From positions 9,114,001 to 9,178,000 of the forward strand of contig NZ_CP031969.1 of assembly GCF_003443735.1 (NCBI RefSeq): a stretch of 64,000 nt of DNA, given 5' to 3'. Below the pieces are notes generated by a model. That model was not told where the DNA came from and did not search any database. It saw only the letters and a program-made list of their open reading frames with translations. The translations under genes and the position numbers were made by a program. This DNA comes from Streptomyces sp. CC0208. GTDB lineage: Bacteria; Actinomycetota; Actinomycetes; Streptomycetales; Streptomycetaceae. Shown piece by piece: positions 4,025-43,858 of the stretch; the first letter of the stretch is position 1; every line of letters begins with the position of its first letter.

Positions 4025-5480
4025 GGTCTTGCCATCCGTTCGGTGCGGTGACGGTGTTCTTGACGTCGCAGTAGAAGTCGAAGCTCCATGTGCCGCCCTC
4101 CCGGCCGACGCCCGAGTGGCGGGAGCCGCCGAAGGGAGCCTGGAGGTCGCGTACGAAGAAGCAGTTGACCCAGACCGTGCCCGCGACGAGCCGCGCGGTG
4201 ACCCGCTTGGCGCGCTCGTGGTCGCCGGTGACGAGGGTGGCGGCCAGACCGAAGCGGGTGTCGTTGGCGAAGCGCACGGCCTCTTCCTCGTCGCCGAAGG
4301 TCTGGAGCGTCAGGACCGGACCGAAGACCTCCTCCTGCACGATCTCCGAGTCCTGGGCGACGTCGGTGAGGAGGGTCGGCTCGTAGTACAGAGCGTCCTT
4401 GCGCTTGCCGCCGATGACCGCGCGAGCCCCGTCGTCGAGCGCGCGACGCACGAAGCCGTCGATCTTCTCCAGCTGGCGCGGGTGGATGTTGGGGCCGAGG
4501 TCGGTGCCCTCGTCACGCGGGTCACCCTGTCTGAGCCGGCTCGCCTTTTCCACGAACCGGCGGGTGAACTCGTCCGAGACCGCCTCCTCGACAAGGATGC
4601 GGGTCGCGGCCAGGCATACCTGCCCGGCGTTGTCGTACTGCTCCACCGCCAGGTCCACGGCGAGGTCGAGGTCCGCGTCGGCGAAGACCAACAGCGGTGA
4701 CTTTCCGCCGAGTTCGAGGCTGAGAGGGGTGAGGTTGGCGGCGGCCGCCCGGGCGATGTGCTGGGCGGTGGGCACGGAACCGGTGAAGCTGATCCGGCGG
4801 ACGTCCGGGTGCGAGACAAGAGCGTTGCCGACCTCGGTGCCGTATCCCTGCACGACGTTGAGGACACCGGCCGGCAGCCCTGCCTCGGCCGCGATGTCGG
4901 CGAGCAGCGAAGCAGTGAGCGGGGACCACTCGGCGGGCTTGAGGATCACCGTGTTCCCGGCGGCCAGCGCCGGGGCGACCTTCCAGGTGGCCAGCATCAG
5001 CGGGGCGTTCCACGGCGTGATCAGCACGCACGGGCCCGCCGGGTCCCAGCTCACGTGGTTCGTGTGGCCGCGGGAGGCGAAGTCCTCGTGCTCCAGCTTC
5101 AGCAGCCAGTCGGCGAAGAAGCGGAAGTTGTGCGCCACGCGCGGCATCACACCGCGGCGGTGGGAACGCAGGAGGGCGCCGTTGTCGAGCGTCTCGACAT
5201 TGGCGAGGTCCTCGATGCGCTTCTCGACTCCGTCGGCGATGGCGTGCAGGATGCGGGCGCGCTCGGCGCGCGACGTGGCGGCCCAGGCGGGAAAGGCGGC
5301 GCGAGCGGCGGCGACGGCCGCCGCGGCCTCCGTCGCCGTGCCCCGGGAGATCTCTCCAAGGGTGCTTCCGTCGATCGGCGACACGTCGGTGAACGTCTCG
5401 ACGGACGCCACGCGTTCCCCGCCGATCCAGTGCCGGGTGTCGACGGCGACCCCGGCCACCGTGGTGATGTGCTCGGTCAT
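4017..5480 (-). CDS. hpaE: NAD(P)-dependent aldehyde dehydrogenase (HpaE-like)
   Basis: A 487-residue ALDH-superfamily enzyme. FTGS (232-235) lies in the cofactor site, LELGGKSP carries the general base Glu256, and NAGQVCLA carries the nucleophile Cys289. Similarity and context fit oxidation of the semialdehyde formed by the neighbouring extradiol dioxygenase, as in the homoprotocatechuate pathway. I start at the ATG at 5478-5480, preceded by GGAG; the 60 extra in-frame codons upstream overlap the preceding intergenic region and gene and do not look like ALDH. No key residue is missing. Confidence 0.88.
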   Translation of the reverse strand: MTEHITTVAGVAVDTRHWIGGERVASVETFTDVSPIDGSTLGEISRGTATEAAAAVAAARAAFPAWAATSRAERARILHAIADGVEKRIEDLANVETLDNGALLRSHRRGVMPRVAHNFRFFADWLLKLEHEDFASRGHTNHVSWDPAGPCVLITPWNAPLMLATWKVAPALAAGNTVILKPAEWSPLTASLLADIAAEAGLPAGVLNVVQGYGTEVGNALVSHPDVRRISFTGSVPTAQHIARAAAANLTPLSLELGGKSPLLVFADADLDLAVDLAVEQYDNAGQVCLAATRILVEEAVSDEFTRRFVEKASRLRQGDPRDEGTDLGPNIHPRQLEKIDGFVRRALDDGARAVIGGKRKDALYYEPTLLTDVAQDSEIVQEEVFGPVLTLQTFGDEEEAVRFANDTRFGLAATLVTGDHERAKRVTARLVAGTVWVNCFFVRDLQAPFGGSRHSGVGREGGTWSFDFYCDVKNTVTAPNGWQDHG

Positions 5481-5514
5481 GTCCGGTCTCCAGGTCTTCT
5501 GATGCGTAAGGGGG

Positions 5515-6321
5515 TTACTCGGCCTCGGAGGTGCCGGATTCCAGCAGTCGACCGCCGTCCCAGACGACGCCCACCTGCCGGTAGTACGCGGCGATCGGCT
5601 CTCGGATCTCCAGCCGGGCCAGCTCTTCCGTCGGCGCCTCGAACAGCTCCAGTTCCGCATCGCCGACCCACGGCTGTCCGGCCTCGAACGACGCGGCGCC
5701 GGTCTCGATCAACTCGTCGAGCGCGAGGCCCTTGCCGTTCTCGATGGAGGGAAGCCAGCGGTGGTGGGCCATCGGGTGGCCGTTGACGAAGCCGTTGGTC
5801 TCGGACGGCTCGCGCAGGGTCACCACCGTCTGTGCCAGGCGTCGGTCGGCTGCGGCGAGGGTGGCGCCGAAGCGGGCTCCGGCCTCGATGCGCGGGGCCG
5901 GACCGTACAGGTGCGGGCGCGTCTGGTGGATCGAACCGAGCTTCTTCGGGTAGCCCTGGTGCAGCCCGCGGGCGATCGCGAAGTCCTTGTCGACCCAGAT
6001 GTACACGCAGCGCGAGTACGTCCGCCCCTGGTACGAGCAGCGGACGACGGCGAAGGCCTCCTTGTACTGGGCGCGCACCGGGTCCAGCAGCTCCTCCTTC
6101 GTACCGGAGCAGGACTGCCAGTCGGCCCAGATCAGCGCGACCGCGCCCGGGTCCTCCTCGGCGAGTTCCAGCGGTGCGGGCAGCAACTCCCGTACACGTG
6201 CGGGATCGGTGCGGTACTCGATCGTGAGCAGGTCGCCGGAGTAGTGCCAGGGGGGTGAGGGGATCAGGGACGATGATCCGGTCGCCGTCTTGGGATGGAA
6301 GTAACCACGGACGCTGGCCAT
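5515..6321 (-). CDS. Acetoacetate-decarboxylase-family (ADC-like) protein
   Basis: A 268-residue protein of the acetoacetate decarboxylase fold, recognised from the PPWHYSGDLLTIEYRTDP opening and the GYPKKLGSI segment, where ADC enzymes carry a Schiff-base lysine. Many members outside true ADC have other C-C or C-O chemistry in aromatic and amine catabolism. Its place between the ALDH and the ferredoxin reductase genes makes a role in this pathway likely, but the step is not known. Spacing to the ALDH start is 34 bp, and it begins 12 bp after the reductase stop. Confidence 0.75.
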   Translation of the reverse strand: MASVRGYFHPKTATGSSSLIPSPPWHYSGDLLTIEYRTDPARVRELLPAPLELAEEDPGAVALIWADWQSCSGTKEELLDPVRAQYKEAFAVVRCSYQGRTYSRCVYIWVDKDFAIARGLHQGYPKKLGSIHQTRPHLYGPAPRIEAGARFGATLAAADRRLAQTVVTLREPSETNGFVNGHPMAHHRWLPSIENGKGLALDELIETGAASFEAGQPWVGDAELELFEAPTEELARLEIREPIAAYYRQVGVVWDGGRLLESGTSEAE

Positions 6322-6333
6322 GACGTTGGTTCC

Positions 6334-7548
6334 TTACGCGGTGAGGGCGGGCTGCTTGAGCAGCTGGGCGCGGTAGCGGGCGGCGCCGGTGGCAGCGGCT
6401 GGGCCGCCGAGGGCGACGACGCCGACGAGCTGCCCGCCGTCGGTGTGGTAGCCGACGAGCATGTCGCCGCCCGGATCGCCGGCCAGGACGCGGATGTCGG
6501 CGAGGCCGAGTACGGGGGAACCGAAGGACTGCAGCCGGAAGTCGTGCTGGTCGCTCCAGAAGGTGGGCAGCGGCGCGAACGGCGGCAAGCCGGCTTCCGC
6601 ACCCGTGAGATGAGCCATCAGTGCCTTGGCCGCATGTTTCGCGGTGTCGCCGGGGATCGACCAGTGCTCGACCCGGCGCGGTACGCCGTCGTAGCGGGCA
6701 TTGGGGAAGCGGGCGACGTCGCCGACCGCGACGACGTACGGCAGTCCGCCGACCCGCAGCTGCCCGTCGGTGAGCACGCCGTCGGTCAGGTCGAGACCGT
6801 TGCCGTCGAGCCACTCGGTGTTGGCGACGGAGCCGACCGACTCCACGACCACATCGGCCGGGAGCACTGTCCCGTCACTCAGTACGACCCCGGTGACGTG
6901 CTCCTCGCCCTCGAACCCCGAGACACCCGCACCGAGAGCGAAGCGCACACCGCGTTCCTCGTGCCGCCCCAGCAGCGCGCGGGCCGGCAGCTCGCCGAGT
7001 GGTCCGACCATGGGCAGCGGCAGCGGGTCGACCACGGTGACGTCCGTGACGCCGAGACCGACCGCGGTGGCGGCCACCTCGCAGCCGATGAACCCGGCAC
7101 CGATGACGACGACCCGGGCGCCCGGCCGGACCAGCTCCGCACGCAGGGCCTGAGCGTCACCGAAAGTCCGTACGGTGTGACGGCCGACCGCGGGGCCTTC
7201 GCAGCGCAGGCGCCGGGGACGCATACCCGTGGCGACGACCAGTCCGTCGAAAGGCAGCTCCTCGCCGCTGTCGAGCACGACGACCCGCTCGGCGAGTCGG
7301 GCGCTCGTGACGCTCGTACCGAGCCGCCACTCCACGTCGGCCGCGCTCGCCTTGGGAGCGAAGGCCAGGGACTCGAACGACGCCTTTCCGGCCAGCGCTT
7401 CCTTGGAGAGAGGCGGCCGGTTGTACGGCATGTGGGGCTCGTCACCGATCACGGTGATCGCGCCGGTCCACCCGGCGCCGCGGAGTTGTTCGGCCGCGCG
7501 CAGGCCGCCGATGGAGGCCCCGGCCACGATGATGCGCTGCGTCGTCAT
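6334..7548 (-). CDS. FAD-dependent NAD(P)H:ferredoxin reductase
   Basis: A 404-residue pyridine-nucleotide-disulfide-oxidoreductase-family flavoprotein of the putidaredoxin-reductase type. The N-terminal FAD-binding motif is VAGASIGGLRAA (residues 8-19), and the second Rossmann motif VIGAGFIGCEVA near residue 150 binds NAD(P)H. It starts 5 bp after the ferredoxin stop, so the two are co-expressed. Together with the ferredoxin it should deliver electrons to the P450 at 9485-10783, which shares the regulatory site. I start at the ATG at 7546-7548; the upstream extension overlaps the ferredoxin gene. Confidence 0.87.
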   Translation of the reverse strand: MTTQRIIVAGASIGGLRAAEQLRGAGWTGAITVIGDEPHMPYNRPPLSKEALAGKASFESLAFAPKASAADVEWRLGTSVTSARLAERVVVLDSGEELPFDGLVVATGMRPRRLRCEGPAVGRHTVRTFGDAQALRAELVRPGARVVVIGAGFIGCEVAATAVGLGVTDVTVVDPLPLPMVGPLGELPARALLGRHEERGVRFALGAGVSGFEGEEHVTGVVLSDGTVLPADVVVESVGSVANTEWLDGNGLDLTDGVLTDGQLRVGGLPYVVAVGDVARFPNARYDGVPRRVEHWSIPGDTAKHAAKALMAHLTGAEAGLPPFAPLPTFWSDQHDFRLQSFGSPVLGLADIRVLAGDPGGDMLVGYHTDGGQLVGVVALGGPAAATGAARYRAQLLKQPALTA

Positions 7549-26343: not shown

Positions 26344-27233
26344 ACTGGCCCTAACAAAGCCTTTGGACGTGGCGGTGGGTGATCAGGCAGACGGCGAGTC
26401 CGAGGAACGCTTCGTGGATGTCGTCGCGTCGTTCCCAGCGGATGCGCAGCCGGCGGAAGCCGTGCAGCCGCGAGATGGTCCGCTCGACGACCCAGCGGAA
26501 GGTGCCCAGGCCGGTGCCGTGTGGCTGGCCGCGTTCGGCGATCACCGGGCGAATGCCCCGCTCACGCAGGAGGCGGTGGTACTTGTCGTGGTCGTAGCCG
26601 CGGTCGGCGAAGAGCATGTCGGGTCGGCGTCGTGGCCGGCCCACGAGTCCCGCGACTGCTGGGATCTTGTCCAGCAGGGGCAGGAGTTGGGTGACGTCGT
26701 TGCGGTTGCCGCCGGTCAGCGACACGGCGAGCGGGATCCCTTGGCCGTCGGTGATGAGGTGGTGTTTGCTACCCGGGCGTGCGCGGTCGACCGGGCTGGG
26801 CCCGCTTTTGGGCCCCGGCGGGCGGCCCGGACGTGGGAGGAGTCGATCACCGCCCGGGACCAGTCCAGCTGGTTCTTCGAGCGCAGCTTGGTCAGCAGCA
26901 GCCGGTGCAGCTGGTCCCAGACACCGGCCTCGTTCCAGGCCGCCAGGCGGCGCCAGCAGGTCATGCCCGAGCCGAAACCGAGTTCCTGGGGCAGGTACTC
27001 CCACTGGATGCCGGTGTGCAGCACGAAACAGGATCCCGCACAGAGCCTGCCGGTCGGGCACCCGCGGCCAGCCCTCCACCTGCTTCGGCGGTGGCTCGGG
27101 CAGCAACGGTTCGATCAGCGACCACAGTTCGTCCGACACGATCCACGGCCGCGACTGACGCTTCCCCATGCGCGCACCAACGAGCGATCAAGCCGACAGT
27201 CACATGATCAACTCGCCTTTGTTAGAGCCAGTG
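26344..27233. mobile_element. IS5-family insertion sequence (about 0.89 kb)
   Basis: Near-perfect terminal inverted repeats are visible: ACTGGCCCTAACAAAG at 26344-26359 and its complement with one mismatch (ACTGGCTCTAACAAAG) at 27217-27232. Between them is one leftward transposase in two frames. The exact outer ends and target duplication are uncertain because the repeat may include duplicated target bases. Confidence 0.75.
26351..27169 (-). pseudogene. IS5-family transposase (two frames)
   Basis: The N-terminal part reads from 27169 (MGKRQSRPWIVSDELW) to CGILF. Near 27025 an extra T (CTGTTTC) shifts the frame; the middle, VLHTGIQWEYLPQELGFGSG to the DDE region VIDSSHVRAARRGPK, is in the next frame. 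At CCCAAAAGC near 26805 it returns to the first frame (SGPSPVDRARPG to MLFADRGYDHDKY and the C-terminus). The second shift looks like the programmed -1 site of two-ORF IS5 elements; the first looks like a disabling insertion or a base error. Related to the scrap at 10947-11110. Confidence 0.8.
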
Positions 27234-28748: not shown

Positions 28749-29399
28749 TCAGGGTTCCCCGGCATGTGTTTCGTCGGCAAGAAGGCCCAGCAGGATGATG
28801 TCGAGCGCCCCGGCGATGCGCTCGTGCAGGTCGAAGGGGGCCGGTTCCTCGCGGATCCAGCGCAGGATCGTCGAGAAGTAGCAGGCGGCCAGCAGTTGGC
28901 CGGCCTGATCGCGGTCGACGCCGGCCCTGATCTCCCCGCGTTGCCGCCCTTGCTCGACGATCCTGGCGAGTTCGTTTTCCAGAGACCGATCCTGCAGAAG
29001 GCTGCCGTACCGCGCGGAGGCGTCCATCAGGACGGTGGTCTCGGCGCGGGAGGCGACGTTGAGGTCGGCCATCGCCTTCAGGTAACGGCGCAGCCGGTCG
29101 CCGACCGGCAGGTCCTCGGCGTGCTGGGAGCCGAGGATCTCGTTGACGCGGGCGCGGCGGCGGACTCCCCATTCTTCAAGGAACCCGACCTTCTGTGAGA
29201 AGTGGTTGAAGACGGTGGCCCGGGCGACGTCGGCGGTTTCGGCGATCTGGTCCATGGTCGTCGCCTCGTACCCCTGGGTGACGAACAGGTGCAGCGCCGC
29301 GGCGTAGAGCTGGTCGCGCGCCTGCTGTCGCTTGCGTTCCCGCCGTCCGGCGGGCGGCGCTGCGGGCACGACTTCGACTCCGGCCTCCGGGATCTTCAT
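28749..29399 (-). CDS. TetR-family regulator of the second catabolic operon
   Basis: A 216-residue regulator. The N-terminal domain is clear: ARDQLYAAALHLFVTQGYEA, then TMDQIAETADVARATVFNHF with the recognition helix ending FNHF. The C-terminal domain is a typical ligand-binding helix bundle. I start at the ATG at 29397-29399. It is divergent from the MBL-MFS-FAH-Sco operon, and the 140-bp gap holds facing promoters and an inverted repeat, so local control is likely. Confidence 0.85.
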   Translation of the reverse strand: MKIPEAGVEVVPAAPPAGRRERKRQQARDQLYAAALHLFVTQGYEATTMDQIAETADVARATVFNHFSQKVGFLEEWGVRRRARVNEILGSQHAEDLPVGDRLRRYLKAMADLNVASRAETTVLMDASARYGSLLQDRSLENELARIVEQGRQRGEIRAGVDRDQAGQLLAACYFSTILRWIREEPAPFDLHERIAGALDIILLGLLADETHAGEP

Positions 29400-29431
29400 G
29401 GCCTCCAGTACAGCACATGGCTGCACGGGTA

Positions 29432-29485
29432 TTGACGCCTCCACACGACCTTCTTAGATTGTCACCCATTGATGGACCCCAGTCC
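29432..29485 (+). promoter_or_regulatory. Promoter and probable TetR operator of the second catabolic operon
   Basis: TTGACG (29432-29437), a 17-bp spacer and TAGATT (29455-29460) make a good sigma-70-type promoter toward the MBL gene. Just downstream is GGACCCCAGTCC (29474-29485), an inverted repeat with 4-bp arms. On the other strand TTGGAC with an 18-bp spacer and GACAAT could serve the TetR gene, so one bound repressor could block both. Confidence 0.55.
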
Positions 29486-29536
29486 AATAATGTACCTAGG
29501 TCTCGCTATTTGATGCGGGGCGAAACAGGAGGCAAC

Positions 29537-30769
29537 GTGGCTTCCGTGGCATCCCGAACAGGATGTGTCGAGCTCGGACACGGCTGTTACGCCTGGATCG
29601 CGGACACTGTCGGATGGGGCATGAGCAACGCCGGGCTGATCACCGGCGGGGGCGAGTCACTGCTCGTCGACACCCTCTACGACCTGCGGCTGACCAAGAA
29701 CATGCTCGACGCGCTGACGCCACTGACCGCCACCGCGCCCATCGCCACCGTGGTCAACACCCACGGCAACGGCGACCACTGGTTCGGCAACCAGCTCGTG
29801 GCTCACGCCGAGATCATCGCGGCCCGCGGGTCCGTGGCCGACATGCGTCAGGTGGGTCCGGCCGAGATGCTGGCACTGACCGGCATGGACAGCCCCGCCG
29901 GACACTTCGCGCGACGGATCTTCGGCCGCTTCGACTACACCGGCATCGAACCCGCCCTCCCGAACCGGATCTTCGACGGCGAGACAGTCCTGGACATCGG
30001 CGGCACCGAGGTCCGCCTCATCGACGTGGGACCCGCGCACAGCGCCAGCGACACGATCGTGCACGTGCCGCAGGCCCGGACCGTCTACACCGGCGACATC
30101 GTCTTCGCCGGAGCAGCGCCGATCGTCTGGCACGGCCCCTTCGCCCACTGGCTCGCCGCCTGCGACCTGCTGCTGGGCCTCGACGCGGACACCGTCGTGC
30201 CCGGCCACGGCCCCGTCACCACCAAACAGGCGGTCCGTGAGATCCGCGACTACCTGGAATACGTCCATGAGCAGGCCACCGCCCGGTTCACCGCCGGTAT
30301 GCCGGTCATGGACGCGGCCTGCGACATCCGCCTCGGCCGCTTCGCGGACCTGCACGAGAGTGAACGCCTGGCCGTCAACGTGCACACCGTCTACCGGGAG
30401 CTCGACCCCAGCCTGCCCCCGCTCGACGGCCCCGGGCTGTTCGGCTGCATGGCCGAGCTCTGCCCCGCCTCTGACGACGCCCCACCCTCCGCCGACCGGC
30501 GCACCGCCCCTTCCGGTGCGTACTCCTCGCCGTCCCCTCGGGCCATACGTCCCGCCAAACCCTGCAAGGAGGAGACATGGTCTCCGCCCCCTCCTACGAC
30601 CCATCCGCCGCCCCGTCGCCAGATGCCACACCGGCCTCTACGGCACGCCACACCCGCACGATCATCGCCGGCTGTCTGGCCGTCTGCCTGGCCCAGATCG
30701 GACTGGTCCTGCCCGCCGCGATCAACGGCGTCATGCAGCGCACCCTCCACGCGTCCGGCGGAGAACTGA
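29537..30769 (+). CDS. Metallo-beta-lactamase-fold hydrolase
   Basis: 410 codons from GTG 29537 (AGGAGG upstream). The MBL core covers about residues 1-300: VVNTHGNGDHWFGN carries the metal motif with Asn in place of the second His, then GPAHSASDTIVH, YTGDIVF and VVPGHGPV. The last 90 or so residues are low-complexity Pro/Ser/Arg, and the final 193 bp overlap the MFS gene in another frame, which suggests the native stop was lost by a small indel near 30450-30560. First gene of the operon; role probably hydrolysis of a lactone, thioester or ester linked to the pathway. Confidence 0.75.
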   Translation: MASVASRTGCVELGHGCYAWIADTVGWGMSNAGLITGGGESLLVDTLYDLRLTKNMLDALTPLTATAPIATVVNTHGNGDHWFGNQLVAHAEIIAARGSVADMRQVGPAEMLALTGMDSPAGHFARRIFGRFDYTGIEPALPNRIFDGETVLDIGGTEVRLIDVGPAHSASDTIVHVPQARTVYTGDIVFAGAAPIVWHGPFAHWLAACDLLLGLDADTVVPGHGPVTTKQAVREIRDYLEYVHEQATARFTAGMPVMDAACDIRLGRFADLHESERLAVNVHTVYRELDPSLPPLDGPGLFGCMAELCPASDDAPPSADRRTAPSGAYSSPSPRAIRPAKPCKEETWSPPPPTTHPPPRRQMPHRPLRHATPARSSPAVWPSAWPRSDWSCPPRSTASCSAPSTRPAEN

Positions 30770-32178
30770 CCTGGATCAGTGACGCCTTCCTGGTGCCCGC
30801 CGCCGTCCTCGCGCTGACCTTCGGCGTCGTGGGCGACCTGTACGGCCGCAAGAAACTGGTGGTGGGCGCGGCACTGGTGTCCGCCGTCGGCTACCTGGTG
30901 TCCGCCACCTCGGACTCGGCAGCCCAGCTGATCACCGGTCAGGCGATCTCCGGCATCGGAGCCGCCGCGCTCTTCCCCGCCTCCCTGTCCATGATCACCG
31001 CGGTCACGACCACCCCGGCCGCACGGGCCAAGGGGCTGGCCTCCTGGACCACGGCACTGTCGCTCGGCGCCTTCCTCGCCCCCCTGATGTCCGGCGGGAT
31101 CGTCGAACACGCTTCCTTCCAGTGGGCGTTCGGCGTGACCGGCGTGCTCGCCGTGATCACCGCGTTGGGTGCCTGGCTGCTGGCCACAGAGTCCAGTGCC
31201 CCCGAGGGCCGCTCGCTCGACTGGCCGGGCCAGATCGCCATTGCCGTGGCCATGCTCGCCCTGCTGTACGGCATCATCCAGGGCCCCTCCGACGGCTGGA
31301 GCTCGACACCCGTCGTCGCGTCCTTCGTCGCCTTCGCCGTGTTCATCGTCGCGTTCGTGCTGGTGGAGAGCCGCAGCGCGGCCCCGATGCTGCGCCTGGA
31401 GCTGTTCCGCATCCCGGCCTTCGCCGCGTCGGCCGGGATGGCGGTGATCGGCATGTTCGGCTTCCTCGGCGGCGCGTACGACCTGAGCATCCGCCTCGGC
31501 GTCATTCAGCACCAGAGCCCCTTCCAGGCCGCAGTGCCCTTCCTGATCATCCAGGGCGTCACCCCGCTCATCTGGCCGCTGCTGGTCCGCCTGCTGCACC
31601 GGGTGGGCCCCGGCCCCATGCTCGTCACCGGGTTCGTCTCACTGGCTGGAGCCCAACTGTGGCTGCGGGCGGTGCCGATCCACGAAAGCGGCCTGATCCC
31701 CCTGCTCGGGCCGCTGGTGCTCAACGGTGTCGGCTTCGGTCTGGTCGTCGCCGCGCTCACCGCCGCGGCCGTGAACGTCGTACCGCCCAAGCTGACCGGC
31801 ATGGCGGGCGCCACCACCAGCCTGGTCCGCGACCTCGGCCAGACCCTCGGCCCCGCCATCGTCGGCGCCGTCGCCCTCGGCATGGCCGCACGTCAAATCA
31901 CCGGCAGCCTTGCCGACGCGGGCCTGACCCCCAAGGAGCACGGCATCGCCTCCACCGTCCTGCACGAGGGCGGCCCGCTCGCGCTGCACACCGCCGACCT
32001 CGGCCCCCTCAGCGCCAAGCTCGCTCCGTACACCACGGAGGCACTTGCCCGCGGCTACAACAACGGACTGATCCTCACCGCCGTCGCCTGTCTGTCCGCC
32101 GCTGTGATCGCCGCCGTCTTCGTCGGCTTCCGACCCAGCGGCACGCGGCCGGCCGAGGCGGAAGGGAGCACGGCGTGA
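30577..32178 (+). CDS. MFS transporter, DHA2 (14-TM) family
   Basis: A 533-residue membrane protein with about 14 hydrophobic segments. Motif A is GVVGDLYGRKKLVVGA (near residue 86); motif C-type glycine-rich helices follow. DHA2 members are mostly proton-driven exporters of drugs or lipophilic compounds, and some sit in catabolic operons. ATG at 30577 has AAGGAGGAG upstream. Its stop overlaps the GTG of the next gene (GTGA), so the two are translationally coupled. Confidence 0.88.
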   Translation: MVSAPSYDPSAAPSPDATPASTARHTRTIIAGCLAVCLAQIGLVLPAAINGVMQRTLHASGGELTWISDAFLVPAAVLALTFGVVGDLYGRKKLVVGAALVSAVGYLVSATSDSAAQLITGQAISGIGAAALFPASLSMITAVTTTPAARAKGLASWTTALSLGAFLAPLMSGGIVEHASFQWAFGVTGVLAVITALGAWLLATESSAPEGRSLDWPGQIAIAVAMLALLYGIIQGPSDGWSSTPVVASFVAFAVFIVAFVLVESRSAAPMLRLELFRIPAFAASAGMAVIGMFGFLGGAYDLSIRLGVIQHQSPFQAAVPFLIIQGVTPLIWPLLVRLLHRVGPGPMLVTGFVSLAGAQLWLRAVPIHESGLIPLLGPLVLNGVGFGLVVAALTAAAVNVVPPKLTGMAGATTSLVRDLGQTLGPAIVGAVALGMAARQITGSLADAGLTPKEHGIASTVLHEGGPLALHTADLGPLSAKLAPYTTEALARGYNNGLILTAVACLSAAVIAAVFVGFRPSGTRPAEAEGSTA

Positions 32179-33119
32179 AGTTCGCGACCTTCGTCCACGA
32201 CGGGAAATGGCAGTCGGGACTCGTCGCCGACGGTCAGGTCCACCCGTTCGAATACCCCGTCGAACTGCTGGACCTGATCGCGGAGGGCGAGCAGTCCCTG
32301 CGCGGGGCGGGTGAACGCGCCCTGACCGGCTCCCTGCCGGTGCCCCTGGCCGACGTACGGCTGCTGCCACCGCTGCGACCGCCGACCGTACGCGACTACA
32401 TGACCTTCGAGGCCCACGTCGCGGGCATCGCCCAGGGATACGGCGACACCGTGCCCGACGAGTGGTACGAAGCCCCCGCGTTCTACTTCACCAACCCGTA
32501 CTCGGTGATCGGCGCCCACGACGACGTGCCGGTACCGCCGGGTTGCGCACGCTTCGACTTCGAACTCGAAGTTGCCGCCGTCATCGGCAAGCCCGGCCGG
32601 GACCTGCCCCCCGACCAGGCACGCGAGCACATCCTCGGCTACACGATCCTCAACGACTGGTCCGCCCGCGACCTCCAGGGCCGCGAGATGAAGGTCAAAC
32701 TCGGCCCGGCCAAGGGCAAGGACACGGCAACCACCCTCGGCCCCTGGCTCGTCACCGCCGACGAACTCGAACCCCACCGCAACCCGGAAGGCTTCCTCGA
32801 CCTCACCCTGACCGTCCAGGTCAACGGCGAGACCGTCGGCCAGGACCGACTGGCCAACATGGCCTGGACGTTCGAGGAGATGGCGGCGTACGCCTCCCGC
32901 GGCACCTGGATCCGCCCCGGCGACGTCCTGGGCTCCGGCACCTGCGGCAACGGCGGCTGCCTGGCCGAACTCTGGGGCCGCAACGGCCTCCTCGAACCCC
33001 CGCCCCTCGCCCCCGGCGACACGGTCACCATGACAGTCGAGGGCATCGGTGCCATCAGCAACACCGTCGTCGAGGGCGTCGCCCCAATCCGTCTGCCACC
33101 TGCCCGCAGCAGCCGATGA
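32175..33119 (+). CDS. Fumarylacetoacetate-hydrolase-family enzyme
   Basis: A 314-residue FAH-family protein: RDYMTFEAHV, then the metal-ligand segment FDFELEVAAVIGKPGRD, TILNDWSARDLQ and GSGTCGNGGC. FAH enzymes split acylpyruvates; the true FAH product pair is fumarate and acetoacetate. The following CoA-transferase genes, which activate acetoacetate, make a C-C hydrolysis that releases acetoacetate or a similar 3-oxoacid the most economical reading. GTG at 32175 is coupled to the MFS stop. Confidence 0.82.
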   Translation: MKFATFVHDGKWQSGLVADGQVHPFEYPVELLDLIAEGEQSLRGAGERALTGSLPVPLADVRLLPPLRPPTVRDYMTFEAHVAGIAQGYGDTVPDEWYEAPAFYFTNPYSVIGAHDDVPVPPGCARFDFELEVAAVIGKPGRDLPPDQAREHILGYTILNDWSARDLQGREMKVKLGPAKGKDTATTLGPWLVTADELEPHRNPEGFLDLTLTVQVNGETVGQDRLANMAWTFEEMAAYASRGTWIRPGDVLGSGTCGNGGCLAELWGRNGLLEPPPLAPGDTVTMTVEGIGAISNTVVEGVAPIRLPPARSSR

Positions 33120-33184
33120 CCACCGCGCGCTGAGCTCTGGCACCACCCCGGTGCCGGACACCCCATCCGGCACCGGAGAAAGGC

Positions 33185-33959
33185 ATGAACAACGTGGACA
33201 AAGTCATGGCCTGGGCCGCCGACGCGGTCGTCGACATACCGGAAGGGACCTCGCTGGCGGTGGGCGGCTTCGGGCTGTGCGGTATCCCCACCGTGCTCAT
33301 CGGCGCCCTGCTCGCGCAGGGCGCCGGCGGCCTGCGTGTGGTCTCCGACAACTGCGGCGTGGACGGCCAGGGGCTCGGCATCCTGCTGGCGGCCGGCCGC
33401 ATCGCCCGGGTGACCGGCTCCTACGTCGGGGAGAACAAGGAGTTCGCCCGCCAGTACCTCGCCGGTGAACTGGAAGTGGAACTCACCCCGCAGGGCACCC
33501 TCGCCGAACGGCTTCGCGCCGGCGGCACCGGCATTCCCGCCTTCTACAACCCCGGCCGGGGTCGGCACCCAGGTCGCCGAGGGCGGACTGCCCTGGCGCT
33601 ACGGCCCCGACGGCAGCGTCGCGGTGGCCTCCCCGCCCAAGGAGACGCGAAAGTTCCGCGGCCGGACGTACGTCCTGGAGGAGGCCATCACCACCGACTT
33701 CGCCCTCGTACGGGCCGCCCGCGGCGACCGCCACGGCAACCTCGTCTTCCACCACAGCGCCGCCAACTTCAACCCCCTCGCGGCCATGGCCGGACGGACC
33801 ACCATCGCCGAGGTCGAGGAACTCGTCGAACCCGGCGCCATCGACCCCGACGCCGTCCACCTGCCCGGCATCTACGTCGACCGGATCGTGGGCCCCGTCC
33901 TCGCCGACGACAAAGGCATCGAGAGGCGCACCGTCCGCACGCGTGAGGAGCAGCACTGA
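33185..33959 (+). pseudogene. scoA: 3-oxoacid CoA-transferase subunit A with one frameshift
   Basis: The first 120 or so codons are a normal subunit A ([20 protein letters not shown], then [13 protein letters not shown], and [10 protein letters not shown]). At TACAACCCCGG near 33549 one extra base shifts the frame; the rest ([20 protein letters not shown] through [20 protein letters not shown]) continues in the next frame to a TGA at 33957-33959. Restoring one base gives a full-length subunit, so this may be a recent mutation or a base error. The stop overlaps the ATG of subunit B. Confidence 0.82.
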
Positions 33960-34609
33960 TGGCCTGGACCCGCGACCAGATGGCGGCCCGCGCCGCACGC
34001 GAACTGCCCGACGGCTCCTACGTCAACCTGGGCACCGGACTGCCCACCCTCATCCCCAGCCACCTCCCGCCCGGCATCCATGTGGTTCTACACTCGGAGA
34101 ACGGCATCCTGGGCACCGGCCCCTACCCCTACGACGACGAGGTCGACCCCGACCTGATCAACGCGGGCAAAAAGACCGTCACCGTGCTGTCCGGCGCCGC
34201 GTTCTTCGACTCAGCACAGTCCTTCGGAATGATCCGCGGCGGCCGCATCGACGTCGCCGTGCTGGGCGGCATGCAGGTCTCCGCGGCCGGTGACCTCGCC
34301 AACTGGACCGTACCCGGCAAGACGATCAAAGGCATGGGCGGTGCCATGGACCTGGTGCACGGCGCCCGCAAGGTCATCTTCCTCATGGAGCACACCGCCA
34401 AGGACGGCTCCCCGAAGATCGTCGATGAGTGCACCCTCCCGCTGACCGGGCGCGCCTGCGTCCACCGCGTCATCACCGACCTCGCCGTCCTCGACATCAC
34501 GGCCGACGGCCTGTCCCTGGTAGAACTCGCCCCTGAAGTGTCCCTCTCGGACGTTCGCGAGCGCACCGAACCGGAGGTGGGAATGGCACTCTCCGTCCCC
34601 CACGGCTGA
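33959..34609 (+). CDS. scoB: 3-oxoacid CoA-transferase subunit B
   Basis: A 216-residue subunit B. Family features are [16 protein letters not shown], the catalytic Glu47 in [23 protein letters not shown] and [16 protein letters not shown]. With subunit A it moves CoA between succinyl-CoA and a 3-oxoacid such as acetoacetate. It begins within the subunit A stop codon (TGATG), so output depends on translation of the frameshifted upstream gene. Last gene of the operon. Confidence 0.9.
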
Positions 34610-34849: not shown

Positions 34850-35340
34850 CGACGGTGTTGCTCGGTTTCGGCGGGGCGTCCGTCGCCCGGGGCGAGCGGC
34901 TGGCGGATGGGAGATGCCGAGTCCGCTCGGTCACGGCCGATGAGAGGGCCCGGGCCTGCCCGGTCTGCGGAGTCTTCGCCACCCGGGTGAAGGGCTCCGC
35001 GACCACCCGGCCCCGCGATCTGCCGTACGGCGTGAGCGGACTGGAGTTCCGTCGGCACAGGCGTCGCTGGTGGTGCCGGGAGCCCGGCTGCTGCGCCGGT
35101 CCTTCACCGAGCGGGTCCCGCAGCTACCGGCCGGCGCGCGGATCACCGTGCGACTGCGCGGTGCCGCCGGGCGGCGAATACGCGACGCCGCCTCCACAGT
35201 CATCGAGGCCGCCCGGGATCTGCACCTGTCCTGGCCGACCGTGATGGACGCCTTCCGCGCCCGCCGCACGCGAGGTGATCGAGGCACCGCTGCCCGAGGT
35301 GCCTGCCTACCCGTACGGACGGCCGTCGGCCTGCTGGCCG
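34850..35340 (+). pseudogene. N-terminal part of an ISL3-family transposase, frameshifted
   Basis: The rightward frame begins VLLGFGGASVARGERLADG with the zinc pair ACPVCGVFATRVKG and RRWWCREPGC. It shifts near 35085 to RSFTERVPQLPAGARITVRL and DLHLSWPTVMDAFRAR, and again near 35270 to REVIEAPLPEVP. It stops before the DDE catalytic domain. Three frames and a missing C-terminus show a dead element. Confidence 0.75.
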
Positions 35341-35828: not shown

Positions 35829-35924
35829 GACACCTCACCCGTTGTCACGCACCAACTCGTTAGGCATCGGGCTCCCCGTTCCGTCGCAGTGCGGTCGCAC
35901 AGACCCACGCGGGCAAGAGGCCCC

Positions 35925-36216
35925 TTCCGCTCGGCGGAGGACCTGGACCCGCGCATCCTCGACCGCCTGCGCGAGATGGCCCTGCACACCATCGCCAAGC
36001 ACACCCCGGGGGAGCGGAACTGGCATGTGCCGATGACGGATACCTGGGCCCGGGTGCCCGAGATCGACGTCCCGGTGCTCACCGTCAACGGCACGCTGGA
36101 CTCGCCGGACCTGCTCGCCGACGCCGAACGCTTCGCGAACACCGCGTGCAACGGCCGCTCGGTCCTGGTGGCGGGCACCTCGCACTTCCCCATCTTGGAG
36201 AAGCCCGTGACACCCC
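35925..36216 (+). pseudogene. Internal fragment of an alpha/beta hydrolase
   Basis: A rightward frame contains LDPRILDRLREMALHTIAKH, then EIDVPVLTVNGTLDSPDLLA and LVAGTSHFPILEKP: the late acid and His segments of an alpha/beta hydrolase of the peptidase or lactonase type. The nucleophile part is missing and the C-terminal helix is lost at an adjoining permease fragment. Confidence 0.6.
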
Positions 36217-36218
36217 GC

Positions 36219-36564
36219 CGACGCCGACCGCTTGTGCGAGTACCCGAAACAACACCGGCGACGAGGAAGGAGACGAGGACTGCGGGTCCCGCCGTACCGT
36301 CCGCCACTGTCCCGGACGGAGTGAAGGTGCCCGCACCGATGATGCCGCCTACGCCGATTGCGGTCGGCGGCCACAGCCCGAGCGACCGTTCCAGGCCGTG
36401 GCCGCGCCGGATTCCGTCTCCGCGCCGCCCTCGATCGGTTTGCGGCGGAGAATCCCCTCGCCCATCCGGAACCGTGCCATGCGCCTCACCTCTTCGCGTT
36501 CGGCAAAGGGGTGACGGCAGATCATGGCGACCCCGAGACGCCCGGGACGGAAGGCGCCGCGCAA
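36219..36564 (-). pseudogene. N-terminal fragment of an APC amino acid permease
   Basis: Leftward, MARFRMGEGILRRKPIEGGA is followed after a frameshift near 36400 by ERSLGLWPPTAIGVGGIIGA and GTFTPSGTVADGTAGPAVLV, the first two membrane segments of an APC permease. The rest is gone. Confidence 0.65.
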
Positions 36565-36582
36565 TACATGGCGGAAGCAAGT

Positions 36583-36604
36583 GAACTGAACGGCCGTTCA
36601 GTTC
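36583..36604. promoter_or_regulatory. Perfect 22-bp palindrome upstream of the ethylene-forming-enzyme gene
   Basis: Each half is GAACTGAACGG and the second half is its exact complement. It is centred about 67 bp before the start codon, where an operator would sit. Size and symmetry fit a TetR-type dimer. No TetR gene is adjacent, so a regulator elsewhere may bind it. Confidence 0.75.
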
Positions 36605-36660
36605 GTGGGTCGGAGTAGTTTGTCCCGCAACCACTGAGCGGAGTTCTCGGAGGTTCCAGA

Positions 36661-37722
36661 ATGACCACTGACCCACATGTCCCGGCGCCCTTGCGGACGT
36701 TCCGGCTGCCGACCGCCGTCGACGGCACGGATGCCGACCGGGCCCTCGGCCGAGCGCTCGTCGCCGCCTGGCAGTCCGACGGCATCTTCCAGGTCCACGC
36801 CACCCCCGCCCAACAGGAAGCCACCGAAAGGGCACTGGAGGCATCCCGGGCCTTCTGTCGCAGACCCCTCAAGGAGAAGGCAGGGTACGTCTCGGACCTC
36901 AGCTACAGCGGCTACGTGGCCTCCGGCGAGGAGGAGACGGCGGGGGAGCGGGACGGCTCGGAGATCTTCACGGTGTGCCCCGACATCCCGGCCGACGACC
37001 CCCGCGTCATCGACCAATGGCCCTGCCACGGCCCGGCACCCTGGCCCTCACCCGGCTACGCCCGCGCCATGAAGGGCTACATGACGGCCGTCGGCGAGTT
37101 GGGGCACCGCCTGCTCCGGCTCACGGCTCTCGGCCTCGGCCTGGACGACCCCGACCACTTCACCCGGCTCACCGCGGACGGCTGGCACCACATGCGGGTC
37201 CTGCGGTTCCCGCCCGCCGACGCGCGCTCCGAACGCGGCATAGGCGCCCACACCGACTACGGCTTGCTCGTCATCGCAGCGCAGGACGACGTCGGCGGCC
37301 TCTACGTCCGGCCACCCGTTCCCGGCGAGGAACGCGGCCGAAACTGGCTGCCCGGCGAGTCCATGGCCGGCCGTCACGAACACGAGGAGCCGTGGACCTA
37401 CGTCACCCCGGTCCCGGCCGTCCTCACCGTCTTCCCCGGCGACATCATGCAGTTCATGACCGGCGGCGCCCTCCTGTCGACCCCGCACAAGGTCCGCCTG
37501 GCCGACCGCGAGCGCTACACCCTCGCCTATTTCCACGAACCGGCCTTCAACGCGGTGGCCCGCCCGCTCGACACCGCGGACCCCACCGAGTACATCCACT
37601 ACGGCACCCACTTCACCCGGATGTTCATGCGCTGCTATCCGGAGCGCGTGACCACCGCCCGCATCGAGACGGAGGGCCGGCTGAAGGTGCTGGACCGGCT
37701 GCGCGAGGAGGCACTGACCTGA
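36661..37722 (+). CDS. efe: Ethylene-forming enzyme (2-oxoglutarate/Fe(II)-dependent dioxygenase)
   Basis: A 353-residue protein very similar along its whole length to the Pseudomonas syringae ethylene-forming enzyme as I remember it (DLSYSGYVASGEEETAGE, RDGWHHMRVLRFPP-type and HTDYGLLVIAAQDDVGGLYV-type blocks). EFE turns 2-oxoglutarate into ethylene and CO2 and also hydroxylates L-arginine. Fe(II) ligands are His197, Asp199 and His276; Arg285 (ADRER) should bind the 2-oxoglutarate carboxylate, and Arg179 in HHMRVLRF is kept. All positions are +8 relative to the P. syringae numbering. The ATG has GGAGG upstream. It is single-gene, surrounded by transposase and gene scraps, which points to acquisition by transfer. 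Confidence 0.93.
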   Translation: MTTDPHVPAPLRTFRLPTAVDGTDADRALGRALVAAWQSDGIFQVHATPAQQEATERALEASRAFCRRPLKEKAGYVSDLSYSGYVASGEEETAGERDGSEIFTVCPDIPADDPRVIDQWPCHGPAPWPSPGYARAMKGYMTAVGELGHRLLRLTALGLGLDDPDHFTRLTADGWHHMRVLRFPPADARSERGIGAHTDYGLLVIAAQDDVGGLYVRPPVPGEERGRNWLPGESMAGRHEHEEPWTYVTPVPAVLTVFPGDIMQFMTGGALLSTPHKVRLADRERYTLAYFHEPAFNAVARPLDTADPTEYIHYGTHFTRMFMRCYPERVTTARIETEGRLKVLDRLREEALT

Positions 37723-37934
37723 ACCGACCGACGTGCGCCCGACTCGGCAGGGCCGGCACCGGGCCGCGGCCCCGCCATGAGCCCGGCTACGGCACCACCG
37801 TCACCGGCCACCGCCCCGCCTTCACCAGACGCACGGCGACCGACGCGACGATCCGGTGCGGCGCCTTAAGACCGTGTCCTACGTGGTGAGGCCGACGGTG
37901 ACCCGGTATGGGGCGGGGTACTTGGAGTTGGATC
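37723..37934. other. Downstream of efe
   Basis: About 210 bp with no gene or clear terminator. The sequence from about 37870 may be the outer end of the IS remnant that follows. Confidence 0.35.
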
Positions 37935-43238: not shown

Positions 43239-43858
43239 TCAGGATGCGAGTGCGGTCTCGTATTCGACGGGACTGCGGTAGCCGAGGCTGCTGTGCAGTC
43301 GGTGCAAGTTGTACCAGCCCTCGACGAAGTCGAAGATCGCGGTGCGGGCCGCAGCCAGGCTGGGCCAGGTTCTCGTGTCGAGCAACTCCCGTTTGATGGT
43401 GGCGAAGAACGACTCGGCGAGCGCGTTGTCCCAGCACTGTCCGGTGCGTCCGACGGGCAGATGGACGCCGAACTCCGTTGCCAGGGTGGGGAATTGCTGA
43501 CTGGTGTATTGACAGCCACGATCCGAGTGAAAGATCACCGGCCGGGTGGGACGACGCTGTCGGCAGGCCGCCGTGAGGGCATCGGCGACCAGATCGGCCC
43601 GCAGGTGATCGGCCGTCGCCCAGCCGATTACCCGGCGGCAAGCGATGTCGATGACCGTGGCCAGATAAAGCCAGCCCTCCTCGGTCGGGACGTAGGTGAT
43701 GTCGCCGCACCAGCGGGTGTCGACGCCGTCCGGGTCGGGATCGAACTGCCGCAGGACGAGGTCGGGCCGGGAGGCGGCGTGAGGGTCGGGGACGGTGGTC
43801 AGGTGCCGTCGCCTGCGGTGGCGGCCCTCCAGACCCGCCGCCTCCAACCGTCTGCCAT
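43239..43858 (-). pseudogene. IS3-family transposase OrfB, truncated N-terminus
   Basis: About 200 codons of an IS3 OrfB integrase. The DDE residues are all present: Asp in CGDITYVPTEEGWLY, Asp in IFHSDRGCQYTSQ and Glu in CWDNALAESFFATIKRE. The N-terminal HTH_21 region and OrfA are missing; upstream of about 43855 the DNA belongs to another gene. Cannot transpose on its own. Confidence 0.85.

Follow-up and report, generated by a model that had tools for sequence, protein, structure and literature searches.

Recent transfer within Streptomyces of a chromosomal slice carrying a probably active ethylene-forming enzyme gene and a probable operator

The window, the whole 64-kb stretch of DNA analysed here (64,000 nucleotides of a 9.32-Mb Streptomyces chromosome), carries an intact gene for an ethylene-forming enzyme (EFE), preceded by a perfect palindrome and closely bordered by the remnants of two other genes. 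Pseudomonas is the best-studied source of EFE. The features discussed below are, in window coordinates and with the strand where one was assigned:

26351-27024, IS4/5-type transposase in two pieces, flank of efe
34855-35244, ISL3 zinc-ribbon piece, flank of efe
35919-36207, forward strand, C-terminal remnant of an alpha/beta-hydrolase gene (about 98 codons) carried with efe, 96% DNA identity to S. griseorubiginosus DSM 40469 (L006)
36583-36604, no strand, exact 22-bp palindrome GAACTGAACGGCCGTTCAGTTC, probable operator
36616-36621, forward strand, TAGTTT, possible -10 element, kept in 7/9 aligned upstream regions
36646-36653, forward strand, ribosome-binding site CGGAGG, read directly, GGAG kept in 9/9 aligned upstream regions
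36661-37722, forward strand, ethylene-forming enzyme gene (efe), intact, 353 aa
37790-37882, reverse strand, remnant of a universal stress protein (USP) gene (C-terminal 31 aa), with which the transferred slice ends on the right
43239-43847, integrase core, flank of efe

The efe reading frame runs from an ATG at 36661 to a stop codon at 37720-37722; the start at 36583 given in the original prediction is that of the palindrome, whose exactness and position, 56 bases before the ATG, we confirm. Comparison with near relatives gave dN/dS values of 0.17-0.33, and thus purifying selection; efe is a selected gene and no pseudogene. The surroundings had been described as broken transposases with permease and polymerase scraps, of which the transposase remnants were recovered and the permease and polymerase pieces had no family match. 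To the left of efe, region 28749-34609 contains a TetR gene, divergent metallo-beta-lactamase-fold and MFS genes, another enzyme gene and two CoA-transferase subunits (the first of whose ORFs seems broken), apparently forming a catabolic cluster.

The predicted product aligns with the EFE of P. savastanoi PK2 over 339 residues at 63% identity (E 1e-145). Searches against solved structures placed Pseudomonas EFE entries at the top, covering residues 10-349, with 9eir, which we take to be a fungal EFE, second at 2e-115 and the remaining matches at 6e-35 or weaker. Pfam matches were limited to two generic domains, DIOX_N and 2OG-FeII_Oxy, and an NCBIfam search of the protein gave no EFE match; in a phylogenetic tree it groups with EFEs against an IPNS-like paralogue of the same genome. 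The assignment as EFE therefore holds on identity to the PK2 enzyme, on the retained EFE-specific loop, and on the phylogeny that the original prediction had proposed as a check. Such an enzyme would most likely split 2-oxoglutarate into ethylene and CO2 when L-arginine is present, and in a side reaction would most likely hydroxylate arginine at C5, releasing guanidine and P5C.

The palindrome upstream of efe is the only perfect one of at least 20 bp in the window. Given that a first-order Markov simulation expects 0.08 palindromes of at least 22 bp per 64 kb, its length alone is only modestly unusual, and more weight falls on its conservation in relatives. Eight relatives (L003, L004, L006, L007, L008, L009, L017 and L095) have retained a 16-mer core, CTGAAYNNCYGTTCAG, upstream of efe, at a nearly constant distance from the ATG and within poorly conserved surrounding sequence, with the outer flanks of the stem not kept. 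This conservation bears out the operator-like character first proposed, and we regard the palindrome as a probable conserved operator. One further relative, L005, is without palindrome and control region; the palindrome was lost there, since the match of L005 extends no further than 16 bases upstream of the ATG. This palindrome was not found upstream of efe in S. scabiei and the scab-causing clade. Most efe genes of this clade (L010-L019) share another upstream motif, about CCCCTCAGAMGGGGGTAGTGGA, in its place, and in L016 a gene for a LuxR-type response regulator precedes efe. A literature search for the 16-mer core found no mention of it.

A scan upstream of efe detected no consensus sigma-70 promoter. 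If TAGTTT, 12 bases downstream of the palindrome, serves as the -10 element, the palindrome would cover the -35 region. Transcription would then probably start just downstream of the palindrome, and a dimeric regulator bound at the palindrome would block this promoter. Guanidine riboswitches were sought in the window and in the loci of 44 relatives, and none was found near efe. A different arrangement was observed in three Pseudomonas loci (L054, L059 and L079), where efe (from about 6000) starts about 220-240 bases after the CrcZ small RNA (about 5350-5780), a position that may place it under CbrAB/CrcZ carbon control; in L049 CrcZ is present as well, about 5.5 kb from efe.

No regulator gene adjoining efe was found in the window, whose two TetR genes lie at 28749-29399 (about 7 kb away, beside an unrelated cluster) and at 1466-2101. 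Another candidate, the MarR gene that neighbours the hydrolase in L008 and L009, is not favoured, its own promoter being without a similar palindrome. The search for a TetR-type regulator suggested by the original prediction thus yielded none next to efe and, as a possible candidate, an unlinked BetI-type TetR in whose conserved operator the same half-site and spacing recur. The efe palindrome contains the half-sites and spacing ACTGA-N8-TCAGT, a pattern for which the 9.3-Mb genome has three sites: (i) at efe, (ii) in the promoter of a Glu/Leu/Phe/Val dehydrogenase gene (G000:C1:1142108; L159 1609-1626), and (iii) upstream of an aldo-keto reductase-like gene (G000:C1:1463244; L191 1501-1518). 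The reversed control pattern occurs nowhere in the genome. Further copies of the half-site, for which the original prediction had proposed a search, therefore exist in this shorter form; the 16-mer core has a single exact copy in the host genome, beside a few near matches that lie partly in coding DNA. In other Streptomyces the 16-mer core occurs mostly behind two unrelated gene families, at 3' ends and terminator-like in appearance, and three copies lie in the promoter of the Glu/Leu/Phe/Val dehydrogenase gene, in two of which a TetR gene is visible behind the dehydrogenase. The host has its BetI-type TetR (G000:C1:1143379) behind the same dehydrogenase.

Of the 30 loci of this TetR, 21 have a TACTGA-N8-TCAGTA-like element, usually in the same position, within the dehydrogenase promoter about 1.4 kb before the TetR gene. 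Among the dehydrogenase-TetR loci L160-L206, most Streptomyces sampled have the TACTGA-N8-TCAGTA operator. That the BetI-type TetR binds the efe palindrome as well as controlling the dehydrogenase, so that efe would be tied to the supply of 2-oxoglutarate or amino acids, is a tentative proposal that we consider possible, though doubtful. It draws on the match between this element and the efe site, on the three genomic occurrences against zero for the reversed control, and on the presence of the TetR in 14 of the 15 efe-bearing genomes tested; however, more than half of the genus has the TetR in any case (35/61), the outermost T/A pair differs between the efe and dehydrogenase sites, and some efe-bearing genomes are without a clear dehydrogenase site. 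Because the search was made after the fact and the host genome has 127 TetR matches, among which a chance match to one operator is plausible, this TetR is a candidate regulator in the sense of a lead and no more. The proposal adds to our overall reading and competes with it on the identity of the regulator only. Its fullest form, in which one shared operator would place both the dehydrogenase and a mobile efe under this TetR and the output of ethylene and guanidine would track 2-oxoglutarate or amino-acid status, seems to us slightly less probable again.

The palindrome might instead be a transcription terminator or an RNA hairpin rather than a site for a protein, as is suggested by the position of most non-efe copies of the 16-mer in other Streptomyces, just after gene ends, and by the window sequence, which folds well as RNA (z -2.5). 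In relatives, however, about 290-350 bases separate it from the end of the hydrolase upstream and it adjoins the start of efe, the outer flanks of the stem have diverged, and a scan found no terminator-like site. RNA folds of the region in L007, L008, L009 and L017 are no better than those of shuffled sequences, and a site acting at the DNA level is therefore likelier. We consider a terminator or hairpin unlikely and retain the palindrome as a probable operator.

Active-site residues were compared in an alignment of 77 EFE homologues using PK2 numbering. The window protein resembles PK2 EFE (P. savastanoi/syringae; PDB 5V2Y, 5LUN, 6VP4) in fold family, in its iron and 2-oxoglutarate ligands, in the EFE-specific loop and in most of the L-Arg pocket. 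The 2-His-1-carboxylate iron triad H189, D191 and H268 is kept as H197, D199 and H276, the 2-oxoglutarate-binding residues R171, R277, F283 and A281 are identical, and E84, T86, D91, Y192, E215, I304, Y306, R316 and C317 are likewise retained. The differences from the PK2 enzyme are V85E, E213P, F278Y, A279T and I322V. The earlier claim that all metal, 2-oxoglutarate and arginine contacts are kept is thus correct for the first two and fails at one L-Arg-site position, V85 (E92 in the window protein), the sole difference in a pocket formed by E84, V85, T86, D91, Y192, R316 and C317. The loop at 210-232, which is essential for activity, aligns without gaps and has P at position E213.

These substitutions differ in what they may mean for catalysis. 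Neither F278Y nor I322V lowered ethylene formation in PK2 EFE, in which the double change V212Y/E213S did lower it and position E213 of the loop correlated with ethylene formation (PMC4202696). Position 85 is V, I or L in EFEs reported active. E85 occurs throughout the main Streptomyces clade (18 of 18 members) and in one other Streptomyces sequence, and is therefore a clade trait and not decay; simulations of PK2 variants place the L-Arg contact on the V85 backbone (PMC11025135), so that V85E may be harmless. It is also conceivable that the protein mainly hydroxylates arginine or decarboxylates 2-oxoglutarate in an uncoupled manner, with little or no ethylene, as do some reconstructed or distant EFE-like enzymes. 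V85E (throughout the main Streptomyces clade), E213P and A279T near the active site are compatible with this, as are distant relatives with altered L-Arg pockets that form almost no ethylene (PMC12329707). We judge it improbable given that the residues reported as critical (iron triad, R171, E84, T86, E215 and Y306) are all kept, and that the 63% identity to PK2 EFE is similar to the closeness of the window protein to the EFEs of Scytonema NIES-4073 (L025) and Nostoc ATCC 43529 (L028), which sit in the same EFE tree and for which ethylene-forming activity has been measured (PMC9101411). Our literature search found no assay of any Streptomyces EFE. On the retained residues, efe probably encodes an active EFE.

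In the EFE tree the window protein falls within a Streptomyces clade with a support of 100/100, away from Pseudomonas and in the company of sequences from S. griseorubiginosus, S. canus and S. antibioticus; S. scabiei, S. turgidiscabies and S. europaeiscabiei form the sister half of the clade. The tree leaves out the fungal EFEs, and its root is uncertain because its sole outgroup is very distant. The efe gene is present in 17 of 392 Streptomyces genomes, and EFE homologues also occur in Amycolatopsis, Lentzea, Frankia, Kutzneria, Nonomuraea, Myxococcus, cyanobacteria and others. It appears interrupted in L077 (S. stelliscabiei DSM 41803, match split over frames) and in L078 (S. tailanensis, match cut short). 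The passage of PMC8369830 that cites Bignell et al. (2010) already describes efe in S. scabiei; EFE is therefore known in Streptomyces and the gene itself is ordinary. The efe of S. scabiei 87.22 and other scab-causing Streptomyces (PMC8369830; L016) shares the clade, E85 and P213 with the window gene at 78% identity, but belongs to the sister half and has other neighbours.

Although EFE is best studied in Pseudomonas, a direct origin of efe from a plant-associated Pseudomonas is rejected by the tree and by GC3 (0.915 against 0.579 in Pseudomonas efe L055), is at odds with the Streptomyces chromosomal DNA of the flanking slice, and has a negligible probability. Compared with the PK2 system, the window gene stands in a chromosomal Streptomyces context and under another control region. 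The original prediction argued for horizontal transfer from the gene's surroundings and from EFE being best known in Pseudomonas and some fungi; the gene was indeed acquired horizontally, with the corrections that the donor was a Streptomyces and that EFE is frequent in actinobacteria. Carriage by a plasmid or phage was also rejected: the plasmid search returned a single homologue, 45% identical, on an S. clavuligerus plasmid, and the phage search for EFE homologues returned none.

The origin is best seen from the conserved efe locus that S. griseorubiginosus and S. canus share with three other strains, in the order CapA, alpha/beta-hydrolase, efe and USP, with a sigma-factor-like gene at the left and a sortase gene at the right in most of them. 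The window matches this locus over 35919-37859 only, with 93% identity to S. griseorubiginosus L006, and is unrelated to it on both sides of this slice. Between the two, the EFE proteins are 97% identical, and palindrome and hydrolase and USP borders are shared; in L006, however, efe lies within the intact locus, whereas the window has the slice only, on a chromosome arm. The USP remnant is 81% identical (tblastn) to the USP downstream of efe in L006, the DNA match ending at 37859. At the DNA level the hydrolase remnant matches L006 at 96% identity and the host's own hydrolase at 72%. The host retains its own copy of the locus (G000:C1:899822-904923), with hydrolase and USP and without efe, towards the other end of the chromosome from the window gene.

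Synonymous divergence conflicts between the two loci. For efe, dS is 0.078 to L006 versus 0.37 to L007 (S. canus), and for six genes of the native locus it is 0.21-0.35 to L006 versus 0.11-0.21 to L007. With efe nearest L006 and the native locus nearest S. canus, a recent transfer of efe within the genus, from another Streptomyces, is supported. A slice of about 2 kb from an S. griseorubiginosus-like chromosome, comprising the last part of the hydrolase gene, efe and its control region, and the last part of the USP gene, would have reached the chromosome arm of the host near one end. Near-identical efe genes in L003, L004 and L005 have left flanks that differ from one another and from those of the window, with a common right border just before the stop codon of the window gene; given these differing flanks, efe was probably mobilised more than once. 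After this border, to the right of efe (about 7057-7225 in these loci), the three have a common sequence of 110-170 bp.

The best explanation as a whole, that efe encodes an EFE, arrived recently on a slice of another Streptomyces chromosome and is transcribed from a promoter that a regulator at the palindrome would block, has in our estimate a probability of about 0.8. New here is the resolution of the transfer of efe together with its control site. The candidate regulator makes the regulation of efe directly testable. In this genus, efe moves as a small chromosomal slice carrying its own control site, and species differ in whether the home locus contains it. Members of the V85E clade are natural variants at the arginine site, a site that affects how the reaction divides between making ethylene and hydroxylating arginine. 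Bacteria have few known sources of guanidine, of which EFE is one, and ethylene is a plant hormone; ethylene-forming Streptomyces could signal to plants.
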